A stretch of 64,000 nt of DNA, taken from Thermoleophilia bacterium (GTDB lineage: Bacteria > Actinomycetota > Thermoleophilia > Miltoncostaeales > Miltoncostaeaceae). Location of the stretch: NCBI GenBank assembly GCA_020438485.1, contig JAGQUM010000001.1:1-64000 (forward strand), read 5' to 3'. The position numbers and the translations under genes were made by a program. Below the pieces are notes generated by a model. That model searched no databases and had not been told where the DNA came from. It saw only the letters and a program-made list of their open reading frames with translations. Below, piece after piece: positions 49,530-64,000 of this stretch; positions within the stretch are counted from its first letter, which is position 1, and each line of letters opens with the position of its first letter.

Positions 49530-50499
49530 CGCCGTCGGCACGCCGGGCCCGGCGAGGCGCCTGGTGGCGCAGGCGGGGCTCCTCGACGCCGAGACGGCCG
49601 GCGCCGACGTCGCGCCCGCCATCGCGCGAGACGAGGTGGCGTCCGCGTGCGCCGCGATCAGCGTGCTGCGCCACGTCGCCACCTACACGTACCAGGTGCC
49701 CATCACGCGTATGGAACACCGCCTGGTGGTGATCCCACGGCGCGTCCACGGTGACCAGCGGCGCATCGAGCACCGGTTCCGCGTGCTGGTGGACGAGGCG
49801 CGTGATCCCACGCTGCTGCACACGGGCACGGACGCGTTCGGCAACACGGTCGTCGACATCCACGCCCACGGCGTGGATGACCGCATCAGCTTCGAGACCA
49901 CGGCGGTGCTGTCGCGGGTGCTGGGCGAGCCGGGGCCGCGATGGCATCACGGCGCCGTGGACCCCCGCACCGCGCTCACATCGCCCGGTGCGGCGCTGTC
50001 CCGGGCGGCCCGCGACACCGACGGGCCCGGCGGCGACACCGACCGCGCGCGCCGCGTGATGGCGCGTGTGGCCGAGCACGTCGCCTACGGCAAGGGTGCG
50101 ACTGGCGTGCGCACCACGGCGGCCGAGGCCTGGGACATGGGTCGCGGCGTGTGCCAGGACATGGCCCACGTGATGATCGCCATGTGCACCGAACTGGGCA
50201 TCCCCGCGCGCTACGCGTCGGGGCACCTGGTGGGCGAGGGTGCCAGCCACGCGTGGGTGGAGGTGCTCGACGCGGCCACCGGCGCGGTCACGGCGTTCGA
50301 CCCCACGCACGACCGGGTAACCGACCTGCGGTACGTGACCGTGGCCGTGGGGCGCGACTACTCCGACGTGTCGCCCACGGCGGGCACCGTCTGGGCCGAC
50401 GCGGCCTCGGGCGGGAGGCTGGAGATCCGCAAGGAGTTCCGCGTGGTGAGCGTCGGGATGCGAAAACGCGAGGAGGAGCACGATGCGGCGAACGGTTGA
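49522..50499 (+). CDS. Transglutaminase-like protein
   Basis: A 325-residue protein with a transglutaminase-like core. An N-terminal beta domain (ATYTYQVPITRMEHRLVVIP) precedes the catalytic part: Cys in GRGVCQDMAHVMIAM, His in ASHAWVEVLD, Asp in FDPTHDR. The family includes proteases and amidases; true cross-linking activity is rare in bacteria. GTG 49522. It overlaps a second gene of the same fold by 17 bases. Confidence 0.87.
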   Translation: MSSAVGTPGPARRLVAQAGLLDAETAGADVAPAIARDEVASACAAISVLRHVATYTYQVPITRMEHRLVVIPRRVHGDQRRIEHRFRVLVDEARDPTLLHTGTDAFGNTVVDIHAHGVDDRISFETTAVLSRVLGEPGPRWHHGAVDPRTALTSPGAALSRAARDTDGPGGDTDRARRVMARVAEHVAYGKGATGVRTTAAEAWDMGRGVCQDMAHVMIAMCTELGIPARYASGHLVGEGASHAWVEVLDAATGAVTAFDPTHDRVTDLRYVTVAVGRDYSDVSPTAGTVWADAASGGRLEIRKEFRVVSVGMRKREEEHDAANG

Positions 50500-51283
50500 C
50501 GCGCGGGTGACGTGTCAGGTCGGGCAGACGGCCGACATGGTGTGGTCGGTCGCGGTGGCCCACGGCCCGGTGATCAGCGACGAGACGCTCGCCGTCACCG
50601 TGGGTGGGGTGCCGATGGTGTTCGACGAGGTAGCGGCCGACGCCGGGGCGCGGCTGCACGTGGTGCGCGGCGTGCCGCCCGGCCCGCTCGAGCTGACGTA
50701 CCACGCCGTGGTGGAAGGCCAGGCCGACCCGGCCGAGTTCTCGACGCTGGACGACATCGTCTACCGGCGTCCCAGCCGCTACTGCGACAGCGACACGCTG
50801 TACCCGTTCGCCTCCGCGCAGTTCGCGGGGCTCGAGGGCAAGGCGCTGCTGGACGCGGTCACGTCGTGGGTGGGCGGGCACCTGGCGTATGTGCCGGGCT
50901 CCAGCCGCCCCATCGACGGCGCCGTCGACACTTTCCTGGCGCGCGAGGGCGTGTGCCGCGACTTCGCCCACCTCGTGGTGGCGCTGCTGCGGGCGCGCAA
51001 CGTGCCGGCGCGCCTGGTGTCGGTGTTCGCGCCGGGCCTGGACCCGATGGACTTCCACGCCGTGGCCGAGGCGTACGTCGAGGGGGCCTGGCACGTGGCC
51101 GACGCCACCGGCCTCGCACCGCGGGAGGCGATGGTGCGCATCGCGTCCGGCCAGGACACCGCCGACACGGCGTTCCTCAGCGTCCACGCCGGGATGTGCG
51201 AGCTGCAGGACGTGGTGGTGGGGGCGGTCATCGACCCCGCGCTGCCGGTGGACGACCCGAGGGGGCTCGTGCAGCTGCGCTGA
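50483..51283 (+). CDS. Second transglutaminase-like protein
   Basis: A 266-residue relative of the preceding gene. The triad is Cys in REGVCRDFAHLVVAL, His in DFHAVAEAYVEG and Asp in VADATGLAPRE. The N-terminal beta domain is diverged. ATG 50483, beginning inside the 3' end of the first gene. Being two overlapping but different copies, they may act as a pair, as seen in some circularly conserved protease loci. Confidence 0.87.
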   Translation: MRRTVDARVTCQVGQTADMVWSVAVAHGPVISDETLAVTVGGVPMVFDEVAADAGARLHVVRGVPPGPLELTYHAVVEGQADPAEFSTLDDIVYRRPSRYCDSDTLYPFASAQFAGLEGKALLDAVTSWVGGHLAYVPGSSRPIDGAVDTFLAREGVCRDFAHLVVALLRARNVPARLVSVFAPGLDPMDFHAVAEAYVEGAWHVADATGLAPREAMVRIASGQDTADTAFLSVHAGMCELQDVVVGAVIDPALPVDDPRGLVQLR

Positions 51284-53723: not shown

Positions 53724-54386
53724 TCAGGCGGGCGCGGGCGAGAGGCGCAGCAGGCAGCCCGCGGTGCGCGGGTCCTCCTCCACCAGGTCGACCACCAGCC
53801 CCGATCCCGACACCCGGGCGATGCCCCGGGCCAGGCCGCGGTGGAGCGCGCAGATCTGGGAGCCGCCTGCCGCCTCCACCCCCACGGCGAACGGGCAGTG
53901 GCGAAGGACGATGTCGCGGGGCTCCGGGCCGTCGACCTCCTCGGGGGCGAAACCCAGCCTGGCGAAGGCGTCCCTCAGCTCGCCGGGGCCGGCGCCCTCA
54001 GTGCACACCCTGTGCGCCTGCCCCTCGCCGAACGACTCCATGTCGGCGGGGCCCAGGCCCATGCGCGTGACGAGCCCCGTCAGCATCCGCACCAGCTCGC
54101 GGTGGCCGGCGGCCTCCCGGCCGTCGGGATCGGGTGCCAGCGTGTAAAGCAGCGTGGGGCGCCCGCGGCCCCGCGGCGGCGTGGAGTTGCGCTCGGCCAG
54201 CCCGCATTCGACCAGCGCGTTGAGCTGAACGCGCACGCCGGTGTGGTGCAGGCCCAGTGCGTCCGCCACCTGACGGGCGTTCAGGGGGCCGGGCGCCTCG
54301 TCCAGCACGGCCACCACGCGTAGCGCGGCGGGGCGCCGCAGGACGTCGTCCCGTGCTGCTCTCTCGCTGGCGACCGCGGGGGCCAA
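53724..54386 (-). CDS. SufR-like helix-turn-helix regulator with C-terminal cysteines
   Basis: A 220-residue regulator. An ArsR/MarR-type winged helix (RQVADALGLHHTGVRVQLNA, then RGRGRPTLLYTL) at 20-85 is followed by a domain ending in HCPFAVGVEAAGGSQICALH and TAGCLLRL. Three cysteines in CPF-x-C-x-C order resemble SufR/Rv1460, which bind an Fe-S cluster. TTG 54386 is chosen because GGAAGGGAG lies 5 bases upstream. It is divergent from a homologue at 54533. Confidence 0.75.
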   Translation of the reverse strand: MAPAVASERAARDDVLRRPAALRVVAVLDEAPGPLNARQVADALGLHHTGVRVQLNALVECGLAERNSTPPRGRGRPTLLYTLAPDPDGREAAGHRELVRMLTGLVTRMGLGPADMESFGEGQAHRVCTEGAGPGELRDAFARLGFAPEEVDGPEPRDIVLRHCPFAVGVEAAGGSQICALHRGLARGIARVSGSGLVVDLVEEDPRTAGCLLRLSPAPA

Positions 54387-54498
54387 GCAACTCCCTTCCG
54401 CGCCTATCCAAGCACCTCGCGGCCGCCGGTGCCGCGACGGGCGTCCCGTCCGGGGCCACGGCACGCCGGGGCGTCCCGAGCGGGGTACAACCGGCCCC

Positions 54499-54527
54499 TT
54501 GAGATATTGGACAAATAGGAGAAAATA
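54499..54527 (+). promoter_or_regulatory. AT-rich promoter between two divergent SufR-like genes
   Basis: TTGAGA and AAAATA with a 17-base spacer give a plausible sigma-A-like promoter; a start about six bases later would nearly coincide with GTG 54533, so a leaderless transcript is possible, although AGGAG (54517-54521) could also act as binding site. Inside the spacer TATT-GGACA-AATA is a small inverted repeat that could be an operator. Confidence 0.45.
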
Positions 54528-54532
54528 GGGGT

Positions 54533-55183
54533 GTGGCCGCGGCCCCCGACACCGAACACCCGACCCGACGCTCGGTCGAGCACCACCTGCGCGCCCGCAC
54601 CGACGGCGCCGGCGTCGAGGAGATCGCGGACGCGCTGGGCCTTCACCCGAACACCGTGAGATTCCACCTGGCGCGGCTGGTGGAGGACGGGCGCGCGACG
54701 TGGAAGGAGGGTCCGCCCCGAGGCCGCGGGCGGCCCCGCCGCCGCTACGCCGCCCGGCCCGACATGGACCGCGACGGCCGGCGCGACTACCTCACGCTGG
54801 CGCGCATGGCCCTGGACGGCATCGCGCACGTGCCGGACGCCGCGGCGGTGGCCCACGGCGCCGGCCGTCGCTGGGGGGCGTCGGTCGCCGCGCGGGCGTC
54901 GCGGGGCGCGGGCCTCGAATCCGCGCTCGACGGCCTGGGCTTCGCGCCGCGGCGGGCCGCGGGCGGCGGGGCGATCGACCTTCACCAGTGCCCGTTCCTC
55001 GACGCCGTCGACTCGCACGGCGAGCTGGTATGTCAGGCCCACCTGGGCCTGATGCGCGCCCTCGCCGAGGCCCTGGAACCCGGCGTGCGGATCGAGCGGG
55101 TCGAGCCGTTCGCCCGCCCCGGCGTGTGCGTCGCGACGCTGGCGGGCCCCCGGCACACCGACGACGAAAGGACCCCCGCGTGA
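54533..55183 (+). CDS. SufR-like regulator, first gene of the DUF2249 operon
   Basis: A 216-residue paralogue of the divergent regulator. Winged helix VEEIADALGLHPNTVRFHLA and RGRGRPRRRYAA, then a helical domain and the cysteine block DLHQCPFLDAVDSHGELVCQ, with a third Cys in RPGVCVATL. The layout matches SufR-type sensors of iron-sulfur or redox status. GTG 54533. Its stop overlaps the cupin gene, so it probably regulates its own operon. Confidence 0.78.
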   Translation: MAAAPDTEHPTRRSVEHHLRARTDGAGVEEIADALGLHPNTVRFHLARLVEDGRATWKEGPPRGRGRPRRRYAARPDMDRDGRRDYLTLARMALDGIAHVPDAAAVAHGAGRRWGASVAARASRGAGLESALDGLGFAPRRAAGGGAIDLHQCPFLDAVDSHGELVCQAHLGLMRALAEALEPGVRIERVEPFARPGVCVATLAGPRHTDDERTPA

Positions 55184-55539
55184 AGTCCGTCAACCTCGGC
55201 GACGTCGCCGCCGGCGAATGTGCGGCGGCCGCCGACCACCCCCAGGGGCGCACCACCCGCCGGGTGCACGGCGCCGACGGTCAGGCGATTCGTCAGGTGC
55301 TGGTGACCCTGCGCGACGGCGGGGCGCTGGCCGACCACGAGAACCCGGGCGACGCGTCGCTGCTGGTACTCCGTGGCCGGGTGCGCGTGGAGGCCGGCGA
55401 CGACGTATGGGAGGGCGGGGAGGGCGACTTCCTGGTCATCCCCGATCGGCGCCACAATCTGCGGGCGCGGGGCGACGCGGCCGTGCTCCTCTCGTTCGCC
55501 CGCGTCCGGCCCGCCCCCGTCGGCCCAGAGGGCGCGTGA
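55180..55539 (+). CDS. Cupin-fold protein
   Basis: A 119-residue small beta-barrel. Seen: ALADHENPGDASLLVLRGRV (motif 1 with His and Glu-like positions) and GGEGDFLVIPDRRHNLRARG (motif 2 with His). The metal ligands look partly conserved. It may sense or bind a metal or small molecule. GTG 55180 overlaps the preceding stop, within the operon. Confidence 0.82.
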   Translation: MKSVNLGDVAAGECAAAADHPQGRTTRRVHGADGQAIRQVLVTLRDGGALADHENPGDASLLVLRGRVRVEAGDDVWEGGEGDFLVIPDRRHNLRARGDAAVLLSFARVRPAPVGPEGA

Positions 55540-56063
55540 TGGGTGATGGAAACGCCGCCGCCCCACCCCCCCACGAGGTCACCCGCCACGAGCTGGACGT
55601 ACGGCCGATCCTGCGCGACGGCGGCGAGCCGTTCTCGGTGATCATGGGCGCCGTCGAACAACTCGCCCCGGGTGTCGTGCTGCGTCTGGTGACGACGTTC
55701 GACCCGGTGCCCCTGCACACCGTGATGGGACGGCAGGGCTTCGCGCACCACACGCGGCGCGTCGCCGACGACCACTTCGTCACCGAGTACTGGGAGGCGG
55801 CCGCCTCCGCGGACACGGCCCCGTCGCCGTCCGCGGCGGCGACCGGCCACGTGCGCACCATCGACGTGCGCGGGTTGGCGCCACCCGAGCCCATCGAGCG
55901 GACGCTGGTCGCGCTCGACGCGCTGCCCGCGGGCTGGCGGCTGCGCCAGGTCAACGTGCGGGTGCCCGCGTTCCTGCTGCCGTTGCTCGACGAGCGTGGC
56001 TTCCGCTACACCGTCGACGACCGGGGCGACCACGTGGTCACCGAGATCTGGCGGGCGTCGTGA
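55539..56063 (+). CDS. Protein with two tandem DUF2249 domains
   Basis: A 174-residue protein. Domain 1 (about 12-75) has ELDVRPILRDGGEPFSVIMG and LVTTFDPVPLHTVMGRQGFA; domain 2 (about 105-170) has TIDVRGLAPPEPIERTLVAL and VPAFLLPLLDERGFRYTVDD. DUF2249 resembles TusA-like folds and is found near denitrification and hemerythrin genes. ATG 55539 shares a base with the cupin stop; GTG 55536 is possible. Confidence 0.85.
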   Translation: MGDGNAAAPPPHEVTRHELDVRPILRDGGEPFSVIMGAVEQLAPGVVLRLVTTFDPVPLHTVMGRQGFAHHTRRVADDHFVTEYWEAAASADTAPSPSAAATGHVRTIDVRGLAPPEPIERTLVALDALPAGWRLRQVNVRVPAFLLPLLDERGFRYTVDDRGDHVVTEIWRAS

Positions 56064-56341
56064 CGCGCGACGACGCCGTCGCGGCGCTCACCGGCGTGGT
56101 CGACCCCGAACTGGGCGTGGATATCGTCTCGCTGGGGCTCGTCTACGGCGTCGACGTGGACGCCTGCGACGTGGTCGCCGTGACCATGACGCTCACGACC
56201 GCGGGGTGCCCGCTGCACGACGCCATCGAGGGCGGGGTCCACCGCGCCCTCGAGAGGGCGGGGGCCCGGTCGACCCGCGTCGACGTGGTGTTCGACCCAC
56301 CGTGGACTCCCGAGCGCATGGGCGCGCCCATCCCGGCGTGA
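56060..56341 (+). CDS. MIP18/PaaD-like (DUF59) iron-sulfur assembly factor
   Basis: A 93-residue protein with the family core VVDPELGVDIVSLGLVYGVD and the conserved Cys in LTTAGCPLHDAIEGGV, plus VVFDPPWTPERM at the end. Such proteins help insert Fe-S clusters into client enzymes. GTG 56060 overlaps the preceding stop. In this operon it could mature the SufR-like sensor or a respiratory enzyme. Confidence 0.9.
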   Translation: MTRDDAVAALTGVVDPELGVDIVSLGLVYGVDVDACDVVAVTMTLTTAGCPLHDAIEGGVHRALERAGARSTRVDVVFDPPWTPERMGAPIPA

Positions 56342-57708
56342 GCGGGGCCCGTGTCTACGGCGCGCCGGGCGCACGCACGCGGGAGCGCATGGCGAGCGTC
56401 GGCGGGCCGCCGTGGCAGGTCCCGGTGGCGCTCATCGCCGCGGCCGTGATCGCGTACGTGGCCGGAGCCCTGGCGCTGCTGGGCGGCGCGGGCGACCTGG
56501 CGGCGGGGGCGTGGTACGGGCGTCATCAGCTCGCGGCCGCGCACCTCGTCGGCCTCGGCTTCGTGTCCGTCACGGCGGTGGCCGCGCTGCTGCAACTCGT
56601 GCCCGTGCTCCTGCGCACCACGCTCGCCCCCGCGTGGCGAGGGGCGGCGACGGGTGCGGCCCTCTGGGCGGGCGCGGCCATCATGGCAGCGGGGTTCCTG
56701 GTGCCCGTCCCACGCGCGATCGCGGCCGGCGGAGCGCTGCTGGCCGCAGGGGCGGCGGTGTTCGTCGCCGACGTGGCCGCGGCCCTGCTGCGCGCCGCGC
56801 GCACCGAGGCAGGTCCGGGCGCGTCGGGCGCAGGCATCGGCGCCGCCGTCGCGTGGTTCGCGGCGGTCGTGCCGGCGGGAGCCGTCCTCGCGGGCAACCG
56901 GGCCGACGCGTTCCTCGGAGCGCGTGTCACCGACCTGCTCGCGGCGCACGCCGCGGCCGCGTCGCTGGGATGGCTGGGCGGCCTGGTCTTGGCCGTCGGC
57001 CTGCGCCTGGGCCCGATGTTCGCTCTGTCGCACGGGTACTCCCGCCGCCGCGGCGTGGTGGCGATGGTCCTGTGGCACGTCGCCACCCTCGCGGTCGTGG
57101 CGGGTCTCGCGGCCGACGCCGCGTGGCTACGCGCCGCGGGCGCCGCGTTGCTGACGGTCGCGTCGCTGACGGCGCTCGGGTTCGTCGCCGACGTCGCGCG
57201 CCACCGGCGGCGGGCCGTCGAGGCGCCGATCCTCCACCTGGGGCTTGGCGTCGCGTGCGCGGCCGCCGCCGTGGCGGTGGAGGCCGTCGCGGCCGCCGGT
57301 GGCGTCGACGCCGCGCGCGGTCACGCCGCGGCCGGTGTCCTCGTCCTCGTGGGCCTCGGCGCCGGCGTCACCGCGGGGCACGCGTTCAAGGTGGTGCCGA
57401 TGCTCGTGTGGACCGGCCGGTACGCGGCCCGCATGGGCACGCCCGGCACGCCGACCCTGTCCGACCTGTACCCCGCCCGCCTCGCGCACGTCGAGCCGGT
57501 CGCGTTCGCCGCGGGCCTCGCGCTTCTCGTCGCCGGGGTCCTCGCCGGGTCCCGCGGACTCGCCGCCGGCGGTGCGTGCGCCCTGCTCGCGTCGGCCCTC
57601 GCCGTGGCTGGCGCGGTCGCCGACTGCGTATTCGGGCGCGGCCGCGCGGCGGCCGCCACCAGCGTCCATCCGACTTCCTCCAGCACCCACACGAAAGGCG
57701 GCGCATGA
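56338..57708 (+). CDS. Polytopic membrane protein, NnrS / heme-copper-oxidase-like
   Basis: A 456-residue protein with about twelve membrane helices. Conserved histidines lie where heme ligands would: HQLAAAHLVGLGFVSVTAVA, AAHAAAASLGWLGGLVLAVG, and HAFKVVPMLVWTGRYAARMG followed by TPTLSDLYPARLAHVEP. This pattern resembles NnrS and cbb3-subunit-I-like proteins tied to nitric oxide and denitrification. GTG 56338 overlaps the preceding stop; ATG 56389 is an alternative. Confidence 0.72.
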   Translation: MSGARVYGAPGARTRERMASVGGPPWQVPVALIAAAVIAYVAGALALLGGAGDLAAGAWYGRHQLAAAHLVGLGFVSVTAVAALLQLVPVLLRTTLAPAWRGAATGAALWAGAAIMAAGFLVPVPRAIAAGGALLAAGAAVFVADVAAALLRAARTEAGPGASGAGIGAAVAWFAAVVPAGAVLAGNRADAFLGARVTDLLAAHAAAASLGWLGGLVLAVGLRLGPMFALSHGYSRRRGVVAMVLWHVATLAVVAGLAADAAWLRAAGAALLTVASLTALGFVADVARHRRRAVEAPILHLGLGVACAAAAVAVEAVAAAGGVDAARGHAAAGVLVLVGLGAGVTAGHAFKVVPMLVWTGRYAARMGTPGTPTLSDLYPARLAHVEPVAFAAGLALLVAGVLAGSRGLAAGGACALLASALAVAGAVADCVFGRGRAAAATSVHPTSSSTHTKGGA

Positions 57709-57953
57709 GCGACCACCCCCTGGCCATCGACGGCAGCATCCTCGACGTCACCACGATCGTGCCGCGCGAACGCCACCCGCTGATCTTCGCGTCCTTCGAC
57801 GGGCTGGAACCGGGCCAGTCGTTCGAGCTCCAGAACGACCACGACCCCAAGCCGCTGCGCTACCAGTTCGAGGCTGAGCACTCCGGGCGGTTCACGTGGG
57901 ACTACCTCGAGGAGGGACCTGACCGCTGGCGGGTGCGCATCGGCAAGAGCTGA
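57705..57953 (+). CDS. Single DUF2249-domain protein
   Basis: An 82-residue protein: ILDVTTIVPRERHPLIFASF, then LEPGQSFELQNDHDPKPLRY and FTWDYLEEGPDRWRVRIGK. The ND-H-DPKPL segment is a DUF2249 hallmark. ATG 57705 overlaps the preceding stop. It is the last gene of the operon that starts with the SufR-like regulator at 54533, and only one base separates it from the convergent MOSC gene. Confidence 0.87.
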   Translation: MSDHPLAIDGSILDVTTIVPRERHPLIFASFDGLEPGQSFELQNDHDPKPLRYQFEAEHSGRFTWDYLEEGPDRWRVRIGKS

Positions 57954-57954
57954 G

Positions 57955-58605
57955 TCATCCCTTCGCCGCGACCCGCTCGACGCGTTCGCGCTCGGGTGGG
58001 CGCAGGCACCCCACGGCCAGCACTGCCCGCGCGGCGGCGGGGTCGTGGAGGGCCCGGAACAGGCGCATCATGTCCACGTCATGGTCGGGGCGGTGCACCA
58101 CGTCGACGGCATCGCCCGTGGCGATCGCCCCCGGCTCGACCACGGCGAGGTAGGCGCCGGAACGGCCGCGGTCGCCGAACCGCACGATCCAGCCCGGGAT
58201 GCCCATGCGCAGGGCGAACGTGGCGCACGGCTTGCGGGGCCCGCACACCTCCAGCAGGGCCCCGCCCACGCGCCAGCGCTCACCCACGAGGGCGGCGTCC
58301 ACGTCGAGGCCGGCGGTCGTGACGTTCTCGCCGAACCCGCCGTTCGCGATCTCACGTCCCAGCTCGCGCTGCCACCAGTCCAGTTCCTCGCGGGCGAACG
58401 CGTAGACGGCCTGCGTGTCGCCGCCGTGGAAGGTCGCGTTGCCGATGGCGTCGCCCACGACGCCGCTGCCCAGCCCGCCCGCGCGGAGACCGGGGTCGCG
58501 CACGTCGACCCGGGGAACCGGCACCTTGCGGTGGCCCGACATCGACCCGCGCGCTCCGATGGGCTCGAGCGCGCCGACGTTGAGGGAGACGACCCGTCCG
58601 GTCAC
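57955..58605 (-). CDS. MOSC-domain protein
   Basis: A 216-residue MOSC protein related to YiiM. The motif GNATFHGGDTQAVYAFAREEL and GGFGENVTTAGLDVD precedes the conserved Cys in CGPRKPCATFALRMG, which in MOSC proteins binds the molybdenum cofactor or carries its sulfur. GTG 58605 overlaps the stop of the triple-fusion gene. Last gene of the minus-strand Mo-cofactor operon. Confidence 0.9.
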   Translation of the reverse strand: MTGRVVSLNVGALEPIGARGSMSGHRKVPVPRVDVRDPGLRAGGLGSGVVGDAIGNATFHGGDTQAVYAFAREELDWWQRELGREIANGGFGENVTTAGLDVDAALVGERWRVGGALLEVCGPRKPCATFALRMGIPGWIVRFGDRGRSGAYLAVVEPGAIATGDAVDVVHRPDHDVDMMRLFRALHDPAAARAVLAVGCLRPPERERVERVAAKG

Positions 58606-60260
58606 GCCGCGCCTGCCGCACACACCGGGCAGGCGGGATTCCGCGGCACGGCGACCTCGTGGAACTCCATGCCCAGCGCGTCGATCATCAGCAGACGGCC
58701 CGCCAGGGTCGCGCCCGCACCGAGGATGACCTTGAGCGCCTCCGTCGCCTGGATGGAGCCGACGATGCCGCAGGCCGCGCCCAGCACGCCCGCCTCGGCG
58801 CAGTTCGGCAGCACGCCGGGGTCCGGGGGGGTGGGGAACACGCACGCGTAGCAGGGGCCCGCGCCGGGCGCGACGACCCCCGCCTGACCGTCGAAACCGT
58901 TGACGCTGGCCCACACCAGCGGCACGCCGGCGGCGACGCACGCGGCGTTCAACGCGTGGCGCGTGGCGAGGTTGTCGCTCGCGTCCACCACCACGTCGCG
59001 GCCGTCCACCAGCGCGGGTGCGGTGGCCGCCGTCACCCGGGCCTCGTGGGGCTCCACCGCGACGTCCGGGTTGAGTTCGCGCAGGGCGTGCCGGGCGGAC
59101 GCCGCCTTCGCCCAGCCCTCGCGGGCCGCGGTGTGCAGCACCTGCCGCTGCAGGTTGGAGAGCTCCACGCGGTCGTCGTCGGCCAGCGCGAGGGTTCCCA
59201 CCCCTGCGGCGGCCAGGTAGAGCGCGACCGGCGAACCCAGCCCCCCGGCGCCGACGAGGAGCACCCTGGCGCCGCGTAGCCGCCGCTGGCCCTCCTCGCC
59301 CACCTGTACCAGCACCGTCTGGCGGCGGTAACGGACCAGCGGGTCGGCGGCCTCCACGACCGGCAGGCCGGCGGCGACCCACGCGTCGAGGCCGCCCGCC
59401 AGGCTGCGCACGTCGCCCGCGCCCGCCCGGCGCAGCGCGTCGGCTGCCGTCGCCGACCGGCGCCCGGTGGCGCACACGGTGACCACCGGCCCGCCGGCGG
59501 GGGCGGGGCAGGCGGGCACGTCGGCCAGCGGGACGTGCGTCGCCCCGTCGATGCGGCAGGCGTCCCACTCCCACCGCTCACGGACATCGACCAGCGCGGG
59601 CGGAGCGGCCCCCGCCAGGGCCGCCGCGAGGGTGGCGGGCGCGATCTCGCCCGCGGCTGTCGCGTCGTGCTCCATCGCCGCGAGGTCGTCCGGGGTGTCC
59701 ACGTCGCGCATGAACCGGTCCGGGTCGCCGAACGTGGTGAGCCCGGCCGCGGGCACGACGCGCGCCCGGTCCCCGAGTTCGCGGATGAGCCCCCGCGCCG
59801 ACGTCTCCTCGCGGATCGCGACCCGGATGGACGCCAGCGCGGCGGGCGTGTACCGACCCACCAGGGGCTGCACGGCACCGTCCTGCTCGAGCACCCACGC
59901 ATCGACGCCGCCCTCGCCGCCCGCCGCCAGGTGGGCGAGCACACCGGGGGGGATCCGCGGCATGTCGCATGGGCACACCACCACGGGCTCGCCCAGTGCG
60001 GACAGCGCGTGGGCGATGCCGGCCAGGGCGTGCACCGGCTCGTCGGGCTCCACCAGCACCCGGCACCCCGGAGGCGCGTGGGCCGCGCCGCCCTCCTTCG
60101 TGACGACGACGGGCTCGAGGCCCGCCGCGCGCACGGCGTCGGCGACGTGGGCGATAAGGGGACGACCGTCGAGCTCTGCCGCGGCCTTCGGGCGGCCCAT
60201 CCGCCGCGCGCGCCCGCCCGCCAGGATCACGCCCACCCGTGCGGGGGCGGCGTCAGCCAC
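58602..60260 (-). CDS. MobA-rhodanese-MoeB triple-fusion protein
   Basis: A 552-residue fusion. Residues 1-190: MobA-type nucleotidyltransferase (ILAGGRARRMGRPKAAAEL, Asp99 in CPCDMP) that would attach GMP to molybdopterin. Residues 205-300: rhodanese with Cys263 (TVCATGRRSA). Residues 308-552: MoeB/ThiF adenylating domain (LLVGAGGLGSPVALYLAAAG, ELSNLQRQVLH, DASDN) with zinc-type CxxC motifs (CYAC, CPVC). MoeB activates MoaD, rhodanese supplies sulfur, MobA acts last. GTG 60260 overlaps moaA by 8 bases. Confidence 0.93.
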   Translation of the reverse strand: MADAAPARVGVILAGGRARRMGRPKAAAELDGRPLIAHVADAVRAAGLEPVVVTKEGGAAHAPPGCRVLVEPDEPVHALAGIAHALSALGEPVVVCPCDMPRIPPGVLAHLAAGGEGGVDAWVLEQDGAVQPLVGRYTPAALASIRVAIREETSARGLIRELGDRARVVPAAGLTTFGDPDRFMRDVDTPDDLAAMEHDATAAGEIAPATLAAALAGAAPPALVDVRERWEWDACRIDGATHVPLADVPACPAPAGGPVVTVCATGRRSATAADALRRAGAGDVRSLAGGLDAWVAAGLPVVEAADPLVRYRRQTVLVQVGEEGQRRLRGARVLLVGAGGLGSPVALYLAAAGVGTLALADDDRVELSNLQRQVLHTAAREGWAKAASARHALRELNPDVAVEPHEARVTAATAPALVDGRDVVVDASDNLATRHALNAACVAAGVPLVWASVNGFDGQAGVVAPGAGPCYACVFPTPPDPGVLPNCAEAGVLGAACGIVGSIQATEALKVILGAGATLAGRLLMIDALGMEFHEVAVPRNPACPVCAAGAA

Positions 60261-61245
60261 CGATGCGCGACATGGTGCGCTCGGGCTGCCGGAACCCCTC
60301 GTCGCCCACGCGGTGCTTGAGTTCCTTGCGCCACACCGCGTCGCGGATGATCCGGGCCAGGTCGTCGGGCGCCGCGCCGTCGCGCAGGGGCCCGCGCAGG
60401 TCGGTCTCGTCGTGGCTGAACAGGCACGTGCGCAGGGCGCCGTCGGCCGTCAGGCGGATGCGGTTGCAGTCGTCGCAGAACGGCTGCGAGACGGGGTTGA
60501 CGAACCCGACCTCGCCCAGGCCGTCGGCGAACCGGTACACGCGGGCCGTGGCGTGCGCCTCGCGGGGCACCTCCTCCACCGGGTGGATGGCGTGGATCAT
60601 CGCGACGATCTCGCCGCCGGTCAGCACATCGGCGGCCGTCCAGTCGCGGTGGGCGCCCAGCGGCATCTGCTCGATGAACCGGACCTGGAACGGGTTGCTG
60701 CGGGCGAACCGCACGAACGCCGGGATCTCGTGTTCCGTGACCCCCCGCGTGGCGACGGCGTTCACCTTGATCTCGCCCACCCCCGGCTGCCGCGACAGGG
60801 CGTCGAGGCCGCGCAGCACGCGCCCCACCGCGTCACGGCGGGTGACCTCGGCGAACCGGGCGGGCGACAGCGCGTCGAGGCTGACGTTGAAGCGGCGGAT
60901 GCCGGCCGCCACGAGCGCCTCGGCGTCGCGCTCCAGCAGCAGGCCGTTCGTGGTCAGCGACAGGTCCTCGATGCCGTCGATCCTGGCGATCATCCGGGCG
61001 AGGGCGGGGAGGTCCTTACGCACCAGCGGCTCGCCGCCCGTGAGGCGCACGTCGCGGACGCCCAGCCGCACCAGTGCGCGCACGACCGTTTCGATCTCCT
61101 CGAAGCGCAGGATCTGACCGCGCGGCAGCCACTCGATGTCGCCGGGCGTGAGGCAGTACCGGCATCGCAGGTTGCACAGATCGGTGACCGACACGCGCAG
61201 ATCGGTGATCCGGCGCCCGTGGCCGTCGACGAGGACCTCGCTCAC
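60253..61245 (-). CDS. moaA: GTP 3',8-cyclase MoaA
   Basis: A 330-residue radical-SAM enzyme that, with MoaC, makes cyclic pyranopterin phosphate from GTP. N-terminal Fe-S site Cys24-x3-Cys28-x2-Cys31 (CNLRCRYC) and C-terminal cluster (FCDDCNRIRLTADGALRTC). LRLTGGEPLVRKDL is the SAM loop. Ending GG is present (SRIGG). GTG 61245 overlaps the moaE stop. Confidence 0.96.
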   Translation of the reverse strand: MSEVLVDGHGRRITDLRVSVTDLCNLRCRYCLTPGDIEWLPRGQILRFEEIETVVRALVRLGVRDVRLTGGEPLVRKDLPALARMIARIDGIEDLSLTTNGLLLERDAEALVAAGIRRFNVSLDALSPARFAEVTRRDAVGRVLRGLDALSRQPGVGEIKVNAVATRGVTEHEIPAFVRFARSNPFQVRFIEQMPLGAHRDWTAADVLTGGEIVAMIHAIHPVEEVPREAHATARVYRFADGLGEVGFVNPVSQPFCDDCNRIRLTADGALRTCLFSHDETDLRGPLRDGAAPDDLARIIRDAVWRKELKHRVGDEGFRQPERTMSRIGG

Positions 61246-61673
61246 CGGGCGCCCTCGACGGGTGTTCCCCGGACCCACTCGGCGCGGTCCCCGTCGATCT
61301 CCCTCTTCCAGATGGGGACCTCGGCCTTGATGAGGTCGATCGCCGCCCGCGTCGCGGCGAAGGCCTCGGGGCGGTGGGCCGCGCTGGCGGCGATCGCGAC
61401 GCCGGCCTGGCCGCGCGGCACGTCGCCCAGCCGGTGGTGGGCGGCGATCGCGATCACCCCGTGCGCCGCGGCCACGCGGGCGAGGATGTCGGCCATCACG
61501 TCGCGGGCCATCTCGGCGTAGCCCTCGTACTCCAGGCGCGCGACGGTGCGGGTGGTGCCCGTGAACGTCACGACGGCGCCCGCCTGCGGGTCGCCCACCC
61601 ACTCCACGAGCGCGTCGAGCGAGACGGGCCCGTCGGTCACGTCGGCGCGCGTGCGGGGCCGCGCGTGCGTCAT
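61242..61673 (-). CDS. moaE: Molybdopterin synthase large subunit MoaE
   Basis: A 143-residue subunit. Seen: AVVTFTGTTRTV, the LEYEGYAEMA block, IAAHHRLGDVPRGQAGVAIA and the catalytic lysine region AEVPIWKREIDGD (K119/K126-equivalents), ending in EWV. It transfers sulfur from thiocarboxylated MoaD to the precursor. ATG 61673 overlaps the moaD stop. Confidence 0.95.
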   Translation of the reverse strand: MTHARPRTRADVTDGPVSLDALVEWVGDPQAGAVVTFTGTTRTVARLEYEGYAEMARDVMADILARVAAAHGVIAIAAHHRLGDVPRGQAGVAIAASAAHRPEAFAATRAAIDLIKAEVPIWKREIDGDRAEWVRGTPVEGAR

Positions 61674-61921
61674 CCGCCGCTGACCGGGGGGATGAGGGCC
61701 AGTTCGTCGCCGTCGCGCAGCGGCAGGTTGTCGTCGGCGTACCGGCGGTTAACGGCCAGCGCCACCCGCTGGCGCGTGAGCAGGTCGCCGAGGCCCGCGG
61801 TCTCGCCCACCACGTCGCGGGCGACGCCCGCGGTGGTGCCCTCGGGGACGTCGACCTCCAGCGTCCCCGTGCCCGCGCGCTCCCGCAGGCCGGCGAACAG
61901 CTTCACGGTCACATTCATCAT
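61670..61921 (-). CDS. moaD: Molybdopterin synthase small subunit MoaD
   Basis: An 83-residue ubiquitin-like carrier ending in PPVSGG; the terminal glycine is thiocarboxylated by MoeB and rhodanese. NVTVKLFAGLRERAGTGTLEV and DELALIPPVSGG are typical. ATG 61921 or ATG 61918 are both possible. First gene of the minus-strand operon, divergent from moaC by 53 bases. Confidence 0.93.
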   Translation of the reverse strand: MMNVTVKLFAGLRERAGTGTLEVDVPEGTTAGVARDVVGETAGLGDLLTRQRVALAVNRRYADDNLPLRDGDELALIPPVSGG

Positions 61922-61974
61922 CGGCGGGCCGCCTCGTCGACGCGACGGGAACACGTGCCCGGTAGATTACCGGC

Positions 61975-62472
61975 GTGAGCAGCGAAAGCGCCTCGGAGCC
62001 GGGCCTCAGCCATGTGGGCGCCGACGGCCGGGCCCGCATGGTGGACGTGGGCGCGAAACCCGTGACCGCGCGCCGCGCAGTGGCGTCGGCGCGGCTGCGG
62101 ATGAGCCCCGCGACAGCCGCCGCGGTGAAGCGCGCCGACGGCCCGAAGGGCGACGTCGTCGGCCCCGCCAGGCTGGCCGGCGTGATGGCCGCCAAGCGCA
62201 CGTCCGACCTCATCCCGCTGTGTCACCCGCTGCCCCTGTCGTACGTGGACGTCGCCGTCGACGTGGACCCCGAGCGCGGCCTGGTGAGCATCACGGCCGA
62301 GGCGCGCACCGCCGGCCCCACGGGCGTGGAGATGGAGGCGCTGACGGCGGCGGGCGTCGCGGCGCTGACGGTGTACGACATGGTCAAGGGCGTGGAGCGC
62401 GGCGTGGTGATCGAGGAGATCGCGCTGGTCGAGAAGACGGGCGGCAAGGCGCCGTACCGGCGGGGGGCGTAG
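61975..62472 (+). CDS. moaC: Cyclic pyranopterin monophosphate synthase MoaC
   Basis: A 165-residue enzyme completing the first step of molybdenum cofactor synthesis. Seen: [40 protein letters not shown] (Lys and His), and [24 protein letters not shown] 61975. Its stop is directly followed by the mogA start. Confidence 0.95.
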
Positions 62473-62952
62473 ATGCGGGTCGCGACGATCACCGTCTCCA
62501 CCAGCAGGTCGGCCGGCGCGGGCGAGGACGGGAGCACCCCCGCCCTGGCCGAGTACGTGGCGTCCATGGGGGCCGAGCTCGTGGGCGCGGAACTCATCCC
62601 CGACGACAGGGCGGGCATCGAGGAGCGCCTGCGCGAATGGGCCGACGGCGGCCGGGTGGACCTCATCCTCACCAGCGGTGGCACCGGGCTGGCGCCGGGC
62701 GACGTGACGCCCGAGGCGACCCGGGCCGTGATCGACCGGGAGGCGCCCGGCATCGCCGAGGCCATGCGCCTGGCGTCGCAACCCCACACCCGCTACTGGA
62801 TGATGTCCCGCGGCGTCGCGGGCCTGCGGGGCAGGGTGCTGATCATCAACTTCCCGGGTAACCCGAAGGCCATCGCCGAGGCGGGCGAACCGCTGCGCGA
62901 CGCGCTGGAACACGCCATGGCCCTCCTGCTCGACCGGCCCGCCGGCCACTGA
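62473..62952 (+). CDS. mogA: Molybdopterin adenylyltransferase MogA/MoaB
   Basis: A 159-residue protein that adenylates molybdopterin before metal insertion. Seen: TITVSTSRSAGAGEDGS, LILTSGGTGLAPGDVTPEAT (the nucleotide/MPT-binding GGTG) and LIINFPGNPKAIAEA. MogA and MoaB cannot be told apart safely; MoaB is the usual form in actinobacteria. ATG 62473. The stop shares a base with moeA. Confidence 0.92.
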   Translation: MRVATITVSTSRSAGAGEDGSTPALAEYVASMGAELVGAELIPDDRAGIEERLREWADGGRVDLILTSGGTGLAPGDVTPEATRAVIDREAPGIAEAMRLASQPHTRYWMMSRGVAGLRGRVLIINFPGNPKAIAEAGEPLRDALEHAMALLLDRPAGH

Positions 62953-64000
62953 TGGCCCTGGCCCTCGACGAGGCCGTCGCGGTGGTGCGCGCCGCGTGCC
63001 GCCCGCTGGGCTCCGGCGACGTGCCGCTGGCCGGGTGCGCGGGCAGGGTGCTGGCCGCCGACGTCGCGTCGCCCACCGACCTGCCGCGCTTCGACAACTC
63101 GGCCATGGACGGGTACGCCGTGCGGGCCGGGGACACCACCTGGGCTCCCGTACGGCTGGCCGTCGTGGGCGAGTCGCGCGCGGGCGCGCCGGCCGCGACG
63201 GCGCTGGGACCGGGTCAGGCCGTGCGCGTGTCCACCGGGGCCGCGATGCCGTCCGGCGCCGACGCCGTGGTGCGCGTGGAGGACACCGTCCCCGGCGAGG
63301 GTGTTGTCGACGTGGGCGTCGCCGTGGAGCCGCGGCGTGACGTGCGTCCGGCGGGCGACGACGTGCGGACCGGCCAGGTCGTGGTGCCCGCCGGCACGCG
63401 GCTGGGCGCGGGGGAGATCGGCATGCTGGCGGCCGTGGGCGTGGACCGCGTCGCGGTGGCGGCCCGTCCCCGCGTGGCGCTGGTATCCACCGGGGACGAA
63501 CTGGTGCCCCCCTGCCAGGAGCCGGCGCCCGGCCAGATCCACGATTCCAACTCGTACATGCTCGAGCGTCTGGTGGCCGACGCCGGCGGCGACGTCGTGA
63601 TGATCGTCCGCGGCGTGGCCGACACCCGAGCCGCCGTCGACGAGGCAGTCGCGCGGGCCCTCGGCGCGGCGGACGTCGTCGTCGTGGTCGGCGGCGTGTC
63701 GGTGGGCCGGCACGACCACGTGAGAGCCGCCCTCTCGGACGCGGGCGTGGACGAGGCGTTCTGGCGCGTCGCGCTGAGGCCAGGCCACCCCACCTGGTTC
63801 GGCACCCGCGACCGCGGGAGGCGCCGGACGCTGATGTTCGGCCTGCCCGGCAACCCGGGCTCGGCGTTCGTGGCGTTCCACCTGTTCGTGGCGCCCGCGC
63901 TGGCGCTGCTGGCCGGCGACGCGCGCGTGCCCCTGCGGGTCGCGGCCCGGTTCCGCGGTCCCGGCGTGCACAAGCGCGTGGGCGTGGCGCTCGCGCTGCG
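62952..64000 (+). CDS. moeA: Molybdopterin molybdenumtransferase MoeA, 3' end beyond window
   Basis: The first 349 residues of MoeA, which inserts molybdate into adenylated molybdopterin. Seen: LPRFDNSAMDGYAVRAGD, VSTGAAMPSGADAVVRVEDT, VALVSTGDELVPP, DSNSYMLERLV, VVVVGGVSVGRHD and MFGLPGNPGSAFVAFHLFV, all in family order. ATG 62952 overlaps the mogA stop (TGATG). The C-terminal domain is cut by the right edge. Confidence 0.95.
   Translation, partial: MALALDEAVAVVRAACRPLGSGDVPLAGCAGRVLAADVASPTDLPRFDNSAMDGYAVRAGDTTWAPVRLAVVGESRAGAPAATALGPGQAVRVSTGAAMPSGADAVVRVEDTVPGEGVVDVGVAVEPRRDVRPAGDDVRTGQVVVPAGTRLGAGEIGMLAAVGVDRVAVAARPRVALVSTGDELVPPCQEPAPGQIHDSNSYMLERLVADAGGDVVMIVRGVADTRAAVDEAVARALGAADVVVVVGGVSVGRHDHVRAALSDAGVDEAFWRVALRPGHPTWFGTRDRGRRRTLMFGLPGNPGSAFVAFHLFVAPALALLAGDARVPLRVAARFRGPGVHKRVGVALAL

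Follow-up and report, generated by a model that had tools for sequence, protein, structure and literature searches.

A regulator-cupin-DUF2249-MIP18-membrane protein operon of a Thermoleophilia bacterium resembles a conserved accessory module of N-oxide metabolism and may protect or repair metal centres

In Thermus thermophilus, a DUF2249 protein (DrpA) and a tandem-DUF2249 protein (DrpB) act on nitrate respiration: in drpAB mutants the expression of nar and dnr is no longer nitrate-dependent, and the double mutant still contains NarG protein at about one tenth of its normal activity, which points to maturation (PMC6282519). In rhizobia and beta-proteobacteria, COG4309 was predicted to belong to NnrR/NsrR regulons beside nor, with which it is co-transcribed, and was suggested to matter for nitric oxide (NO) reductase (Rodionov 2005, PMC1274295). 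All four DUF2249 genes of Haloferax mediterranei are up-regulated in denitrification (PMC11218638). Here, we describe a related locus in the first 64,000 nucleotides of contig JAGQUM010000001.1 from a Thermoleophilia bacterium (hereafter, the window), which lie within an 83.5 kb contig (C87, ending at 83463) of a 2.58 Mb draft genome that is 95% complete. The locus is an operon headed by a three-cysteine regulator (RegB), with a second such regulator (RegA) transcribed divergently. With slightly better than even confidence, we propose that it is the version found in Thermoleophilia of a conserved denitrification/N-oxide accessory module, which would respond to NO and serve in metal-centre protection or repair. 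Its features are as follows.

53724-54464, minus strand: RegA, winged-helix regulator with a C-terminal three-cysteine motif starting CPF (Pfam MarR_2/HTH)
54465-54532, no strand: AT-rich divergent intergenic region with the RegB promoter (GC content and promoter scan)
54533-55183, plus strand: RegB, winged-helix regulator, operon gene 1 (Pfam HTH_20, 5.5e-10)
55180-55539, plus strand: small cupin (Pfam Cupin_2, 2.1e-7)
55539-56063, plus strand: tandem DUF2249 protein (Pfam, 9.5e-30, two domains)
56060-56341, plus strand: MIP18/DUF59 Fe-S maturation factor (Pfam FeS_assembly_P, 6.7e-19)
56338-57708, plus strand: 12-helix membrane protein, assigned to the heme-copper oxidase (HCO)/NO reductase superfamily (predicted model, Foldseek and profile)
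57705-57953, plus strand: single DUF2249 protein, DrpA type (identity to Thermus proteins, alignment)

The geometry was verified at base level. RegA is read leftward, RegB rightward and followed by five genes, with consecutive overlaps of 4, 1, 4, 4, and 4 bp from RegB to the single DUF2249 gene. An earlier reading of the window, made from the sequence only, had described two divergent three-cysteine regulators flanking a short AT-rich promoter and five genes joined by 1-4 bp overlaps. Both descriptions were borne out by the coordinates and by Pfam, which recognised winged helix-turn-helix (wHTH) domains in the regulators and Cupin_2, two DUF2249, FeS_assembly_P, and one DUF2249 in the genes that follow. 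The start of RegA is ambiguous (GTG at 54464 or TTG at 54386). The gap between the regulators has a GC content of 45%, compared with about 75-80% in the flanks, and holds a single sigma-70-like promoter, TTGAGA-16-GAAAAT, at 54499-54526 (shuffles gave 0.0 +/- 0.1). The hexamers end 6 nt upstream of the RegB GTG, so the RegB mRNA is probably leaderless. No RNA elements were found in the 53-64 kb region.

We then looked at the conservation of the block in relatives (the G numbers below), of which the named ones are Thermoleophilia or uncultured Actinomycetota. The order tandem DUF2249 - MIP18 - membrane protein (- single DUF2249) is kept in G010, G011, G013, and G034, which belong to the same family, and the membrane protein is about 50% identical across these carriers. 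A block order that recurs at about 50% protein identity is not due to chance. In G471, from another family of the class (f6), regulator, membrane protein, MIP18, tandem DUF2249, single DUF2249, and cupin are found together, and elsewhere in the phylum G187 has the order RegB-like regulator - DUF2249 - membrane protein - MIP18. The cupin stands at the block end in G011, is also within or next to the set in G019 and G471, and appears in G187 as a cupin-hemerythrin fusion, which adjoins the block together with a hemerythrin-like gene and a nirK-like gene. Hemerythrin domains occur near the set in two more genomes: in G128 a DrpA-type DUF2249 is fused to hemerythrin (L041:10750-11805, minus strand), with MIP18 - DUF2249 as well as the membrane gene close by, and the set of G487 has a RIC-type ScdA/hemerythrin protein in its vicinity.

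N-oxide genes were found beside the block, complete or partial, in three phyla. Eight annotated-plasmid stretches around DUF2249 matches were picked, non-randomly, from ranked lists, and the one from Cupriavidus carries no gene annotation. In all seven others (two from Thermus, two from Mesorhizobium, and one each from Sinorhizobium, Paracoccus, and Rhizobium), nar, nir, nor or nos genes adjoin DUF2249. The Thermus plasmids show nar - DrpA - DrpB - 4-TM COX1-like - protoglobin - 12-TM homologue - MIP18 (TM, transmembrane), Rhizobium shows nor - hemN - DUF2249 - 12-TM - tandem DUF2249 - MIP18 - NnrS - NnrU - nirK, and Sinorhizobium shows nor - hemN - DUF2249 - 12-TM - tandem DUF2249 - MIP18 - NnrS - nirK. 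The block lies on the nor side in Paracoccus and on the nos side in Mesorhizobium, the core being partly reshuffled outside Thermoleophilia. A tblastn search of the plasmids with the window membrane protein gave no match, but profile comparison does find homologues there: in Thermus, Mesorhizobium, and Sinorhizobium, the 12-TM proteins that stand there without annotation reached 98.8-99.4% in hhalign, while the three controls, NnrS, the cytochrome oxidase subunit CoxI, and an MFS transporter, stayed at 0.1-0.2%. Within Thermoleophilia, RegA homologues adjoin nirK-like genes in G018, G019, and G010; they also adjoin narGHJI, together with a cupin and a single DUF2249, in G019, and narJIK in G034. 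In G034 the block and the nar side are on two contigs, which are probably contiguous because their ends overlap by 20 bp inside the membrane gene, with four terminal bases in disagreement. Altogether, the link of the block to N-oxide genes is strong, and the role in nitrite and NO handling that had been read from the window gains from these conserved neighbourhoods and from the NirK-like gene that the window genome carries; the chemistry of the block is what we infer.

COG4309, which we take to be the same family as DUF2249, likewise stands beside NO reductase genes under NnrR/NsrR, but there one gene has been named rather than a four-gene block, and the regulators differ from those found here. 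The Thermus plasmids come closer, with a DrpA-type DUF2249 and a tandem-DUF2249 protein (PMC6282519) and with a 12-TM homologue and MIP18 nearby. Unlike the window, however, they carry an extra DUF1858 in DrpB, show no annotation of a cupin or a SufR/ArnR-like regulator in the stretch, and adjoin nar, which was not found in the window genome. The DUF1858 domain led us to reject DrpB identity for the tandem protein of the window, which has two DUF2249 domains only. A position inside nor, nirK, nar, and nos clusters would also suit a dedicated maturase, a block devoted to a single enzyme (NirK, NO reductase or nitrate reductase) whose metal centre it would insert or repair, and the importance suggested for COG4309 in relation to NO reductase (Rodionov et al., PMC1274295) and the poorly active NarG of the drpAB mutant (PMC6282519) go in the same direction. 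We consider this rather improbable, since different lineages have different partner enzymes (nar, nirK, nor, nos), and neither a NO reductase (NOR) nor a Nar was identified in the window genome.

Co-occurrence was examined in 300 genomes of the class, using for a full-length NirK match a cut-off of E <= 1e-35 set after the list was seen. A match was present in 16/36 genomes with DUF2249 vs 30/264 of the others (p=6e-6), and in 12/26 with the membrane family vs 34/274 (p=8e-5), in statistics that ignore shared ancestry. This leaves 20 of the 36 DUF2249-bearing genomes without such a match, which would fit a general Fe-S or oxidative-stress operon with no N-oxide specificity, as would the pairing of SufR-type regulators with a MIP18/SufT-like factor. 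Such an operon is nevertheless very unlikely in our view: it does not account for nar, nir, nor, and nos neighbours repeated over three phyla, nor for a DrpA-type DUF2249 and an HCO/NOR-like membrane protein in an operon without suf genes.

In the window genome itself, a NirK-like gene is present on contig C40. Its type-1 and type-2 copper motifs are kept, as judged by eye, and it scores 168.6 bits against an NCBIfam NirK cut-off of 296.3, below which all members of the class also fall. Because it is on another contig, NirK is linked here to the operon by genome only. Nitrate respiration, proposed for the organism in the sequence-only reading, is not supported: the NirK-like gene is there, but no NarG was found in the 95% complete genome, where the matches to PF00384 (molybdopterin fold) are an FdhF/YdeP-type enzyme by an fdhD-like gene (C1) and one protein in the complex-I cluster (C61). 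Nor do nar, nir or nor genes lie beyond the right edge of the window, as had been suggested, since C87 ends at 83463 and none of the genome's NarG, COX1/NOR or NirK matches is on it. Two COX1-family proteins are encoded, a strong COX1 match on C48 and a divergent one on C53, neither of them recognised as a NOR; an unusual NOR subtype may be among them. The C53 protein (L024:8205-10324) is a divergent HCO subunit I whose short subunit II keeps a CuA-like motif, and could be an oxidase or an unusual NOR.

Both regulators combine a wHTH domain with three C-terminal cysteines within the pattern ~C-x12-14-C-x27-32-C, spaced C-x14-C-x31-C in RegA and C-x13-C-x31-C in RegB, with an invariant His three residues past the second Cys. 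In a tree, the window RegA is sister (support 100/100) of the narG-side regulator of G019, and this pair is nested in a group (97/98) of nirK/nar-side regulators. Described regulators are similar. Mycobacterium tuberculosis SufR (Rv1460) is a wHTH protein with C203, C216, and C244 (x12, x27; PMC6034842), and ArnR of Corynebacterium, an actinobacterial NO-sensing wHTH protein that adjoins nar, has C179, C193, and C223 (x13, x29) and leaves DNA when its [4Fe-4S] cluster is nitrosylated (PMC12343034). ArnR controls narKGHJI and hmp, its last spacing differs from the x13-14/x31 found here, and the likeness to it is one of spacing and wHTH. Of the SufR-like character first attributed to RegA and RegB, the SufR/ArnR-type cysteine spacing stands and SufR in the strict sense does not, as there was no match to the SufR model and the genes that follow are cupin, DUF2249, MIP18, and membrane protein rather than suf. 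By analogy, we regard RegA and RegB as probable [4Fe-4S] repressors akin to SufR and ArnR.

The membrane protein has no family match in Pfam or NCBIfam. Its AlphaFold model has 12 long helices (pLDDT 74.6, pTM 0.78), the number estimated earlier, and its closest PDB folds in Foldseek are cbb3 CcoN (E 3.9e-6, TM-score 0.66) and cNOR NorB (4e-4). Independently of the fold search, a profile of 16 sequences of the family matches CcoN by sequence (E 1.2e-5). The predicted fold, its 12 TM helices, and the profile thus place the protein in the HCO/NO reductase superfamily. The profile alignment sets its first four-helix unit on CcoN helices 9-12, with H69 at the HVH region, where heme ligands are carried. 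Each four-helix unit has one of the histidines H69, H204, and H348, on helices 2, 6, and 10, respectively. The first of them is invariant and the second almost so, and the third occurs only in Thermoleophilia, in most members. A catalytic HCO/NOR subunit was rejected, as such subunits have six conserved His (TM2, TM6, two each in TM7 and TM10) and the full set is missing. The name NnrS-like, first given to the protein, does not hold by sequence (hhalign 0.2% against an NnrS, and no family match), while the relation in fold to HCO/NOR proteins does. Pei et al. 2014, cited in PMC11218638, reportedly described HCO-homology (HCOH) proteins, NnrS included. These share with the window family a 12-TM HCO/NOR-like fold, few conserved His, and a denitrification context, but the window family has no sequence similarity to NnrS; it may already be one of the HCOH families of that paper. 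In Thermus (L077:10034-10465, plus strand) and G013 (L021:11097-11576, minus strand), the block is adjoined by small membrane proteins that match COX1 weakly and resemble single-unit HCO-homology proteins.

The single DUF2249 protein is 62-67% identical to Thermus DUF2249/DrpA-type proteins. Its alignment shows conserved H24 and D45-H46, as in a DrpA-type DUF2249, with H24 and H46 present in every row but a wrongly cut one (L041). No PDB relative of it was found by sequence. The DUF2249 model is TusA-like (SirA-like 3hz7, TM-score 0.75; TusA 3lvj, 0.78; both by target length), with Foldseek E-values of only 0.04-0.06, and a sub-threshold Pfam TusA match was seen. A TusA-type sulfur carrier was rejected: the CPxP catalytic Cys is missing, the sequence there being GLAPPEP. 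Neither the tandem nor the single protein has any cysteine, so persulfide chemistry is unlikely. The MIP18 protein retains the DUF59 motif as DPE-X-T-X2-C (DPE-X26-31-T-X2/3-C in PMC9045647). It shares this motif and the FeS_assembly_P domain with SufT/MIP18 factors, which serve in Fe-S protein maturation and survival under nitrosative conditions (PMC9045647), but here it is inside an N-oxide-linked block rather than a suf operon. Through MIP18, the Fe-S maintenance role proposed from the window is plausible. The DUF2249 proteins could instead belong to a signal relay, in which they and the membrane protein would sense nitrate, nitrite or NO and signal to the regulators in a Drp-like manner, with no repair. 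The lost nitrate dependence of nar/dnr expression in drpAB mutants (PMC6282519), the induction of four out of four Haloferax mediterranei genes (PMC11218638), and the presence of regulators in the operon are in favour of this. We think it unlikely, as it leaves unexplained both MIP18 in the block across three phyla and the lost nitrate reductase activity of a drpAB mutant that has NarG protein.

We therefore return to NO-responsive metal-centre protection or repair, which the analogies to ArnR, SufT/DUF59, drpAB, Haloferax, and COG4309 make the most likely task. By analogy to ArnR and SufR, NO from nitrite reduction would nitrosylate the RegA and RegB clusters and release the divergent promoter. 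The HCO-homology membrane protein would probably bind heme through the His of helices 2, 6 and/or 10, and may meet NO or pass electrons without the full catalytic His set. The Cys-less, His-bearing, TusA-fold DUF2249 proteins would be its soluble partners or adaptors, and the MIP18/DUF59 factor would help in rebuilding Fe-S centres. Together they would most likely protect metal centres, or mature them anew, while NirK generates NO. Several observations weigh against this proposal. The NirK-like gene is away from the operon, no NarG or NOR was identified in the genome, and no hemerythrin match was found in it. The co-occurrence tests are blind to ancestry, and no common operator upstream of the module, RegA, and nirK gave a motif beating shuffles. 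DUF2249 has no established function, and the Drp proteins were proposed to be nitrate sensors, not repair factors. Homologues from rhizobia and Thermus have Q or M in place of the His on helix 10 (H348), which makes the heme site uncertain. A bolder version, which we hold only tentatively and regard as doubtful, is a distinct and widespread complex for NO protection, in which a membrane protein of HCO fold, heme-binding but not catalytic, would act with Cys-less, TusA-fold DUF2249 partners and a MIP18 factor to remove NO from metal centres or rebuild them under paired [4Fe-4S] regulators, as an alternative to hemerythrin-type RIC.

Outside the operon, the right part of the window is occupied by molybdenum-cofactor genes.

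57955-64000: molybdenum-cofactor genes (MOSC-like; MobA-rhodanese-ThiF fusion; moaA-E, moeA-like), context

The fusion was typed by Pfam, the other genes were named from sequence, and the last gene crosses the window end. The fusion (58602-60236, minus strand) joins a MobA-like NTP transferase, a rhodanese, and ThiF/MoeB in one gene, an unusual triple fusion in a molybdenum-cofactor locus. A moaA-like gene lies about 3.5 kb from the block of G013 (L021:4441-5433, minus strand), so the molybdenum-cofactor neighbourhood may recur beside the block. To the left, at 49564-51283, there are two neighbouring genes with a slight overlap, the second transglutaminase-like and the first similar to it by eye.

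The gene set had at first been thought to match no described system. Fragments of it are known already, namely DrpA/DrpB, COG4309 near nor, and HCO-homology proteins. For the whole set as a unit this view stands: the literature searched, which did not include Pei et al. 2014, gave no account of the four-gene block as a cross-phylum unit, of its unclassified HCO-fold protein, or of SufR/ArnR-like regulators paired with the block in Thermoleophilia. The present analysis joins these scattered reports, and those on DUF59 factors, into one recurring block that lies within denitrification clusters of three phyla, with an unclassified membrane protein of predicted HCO/NOR fold at its centre. For the old question of the role of DUF2249 and accessory membrane proteins, this provides a four-gene unit that can be tested in tractable denitrifiers.

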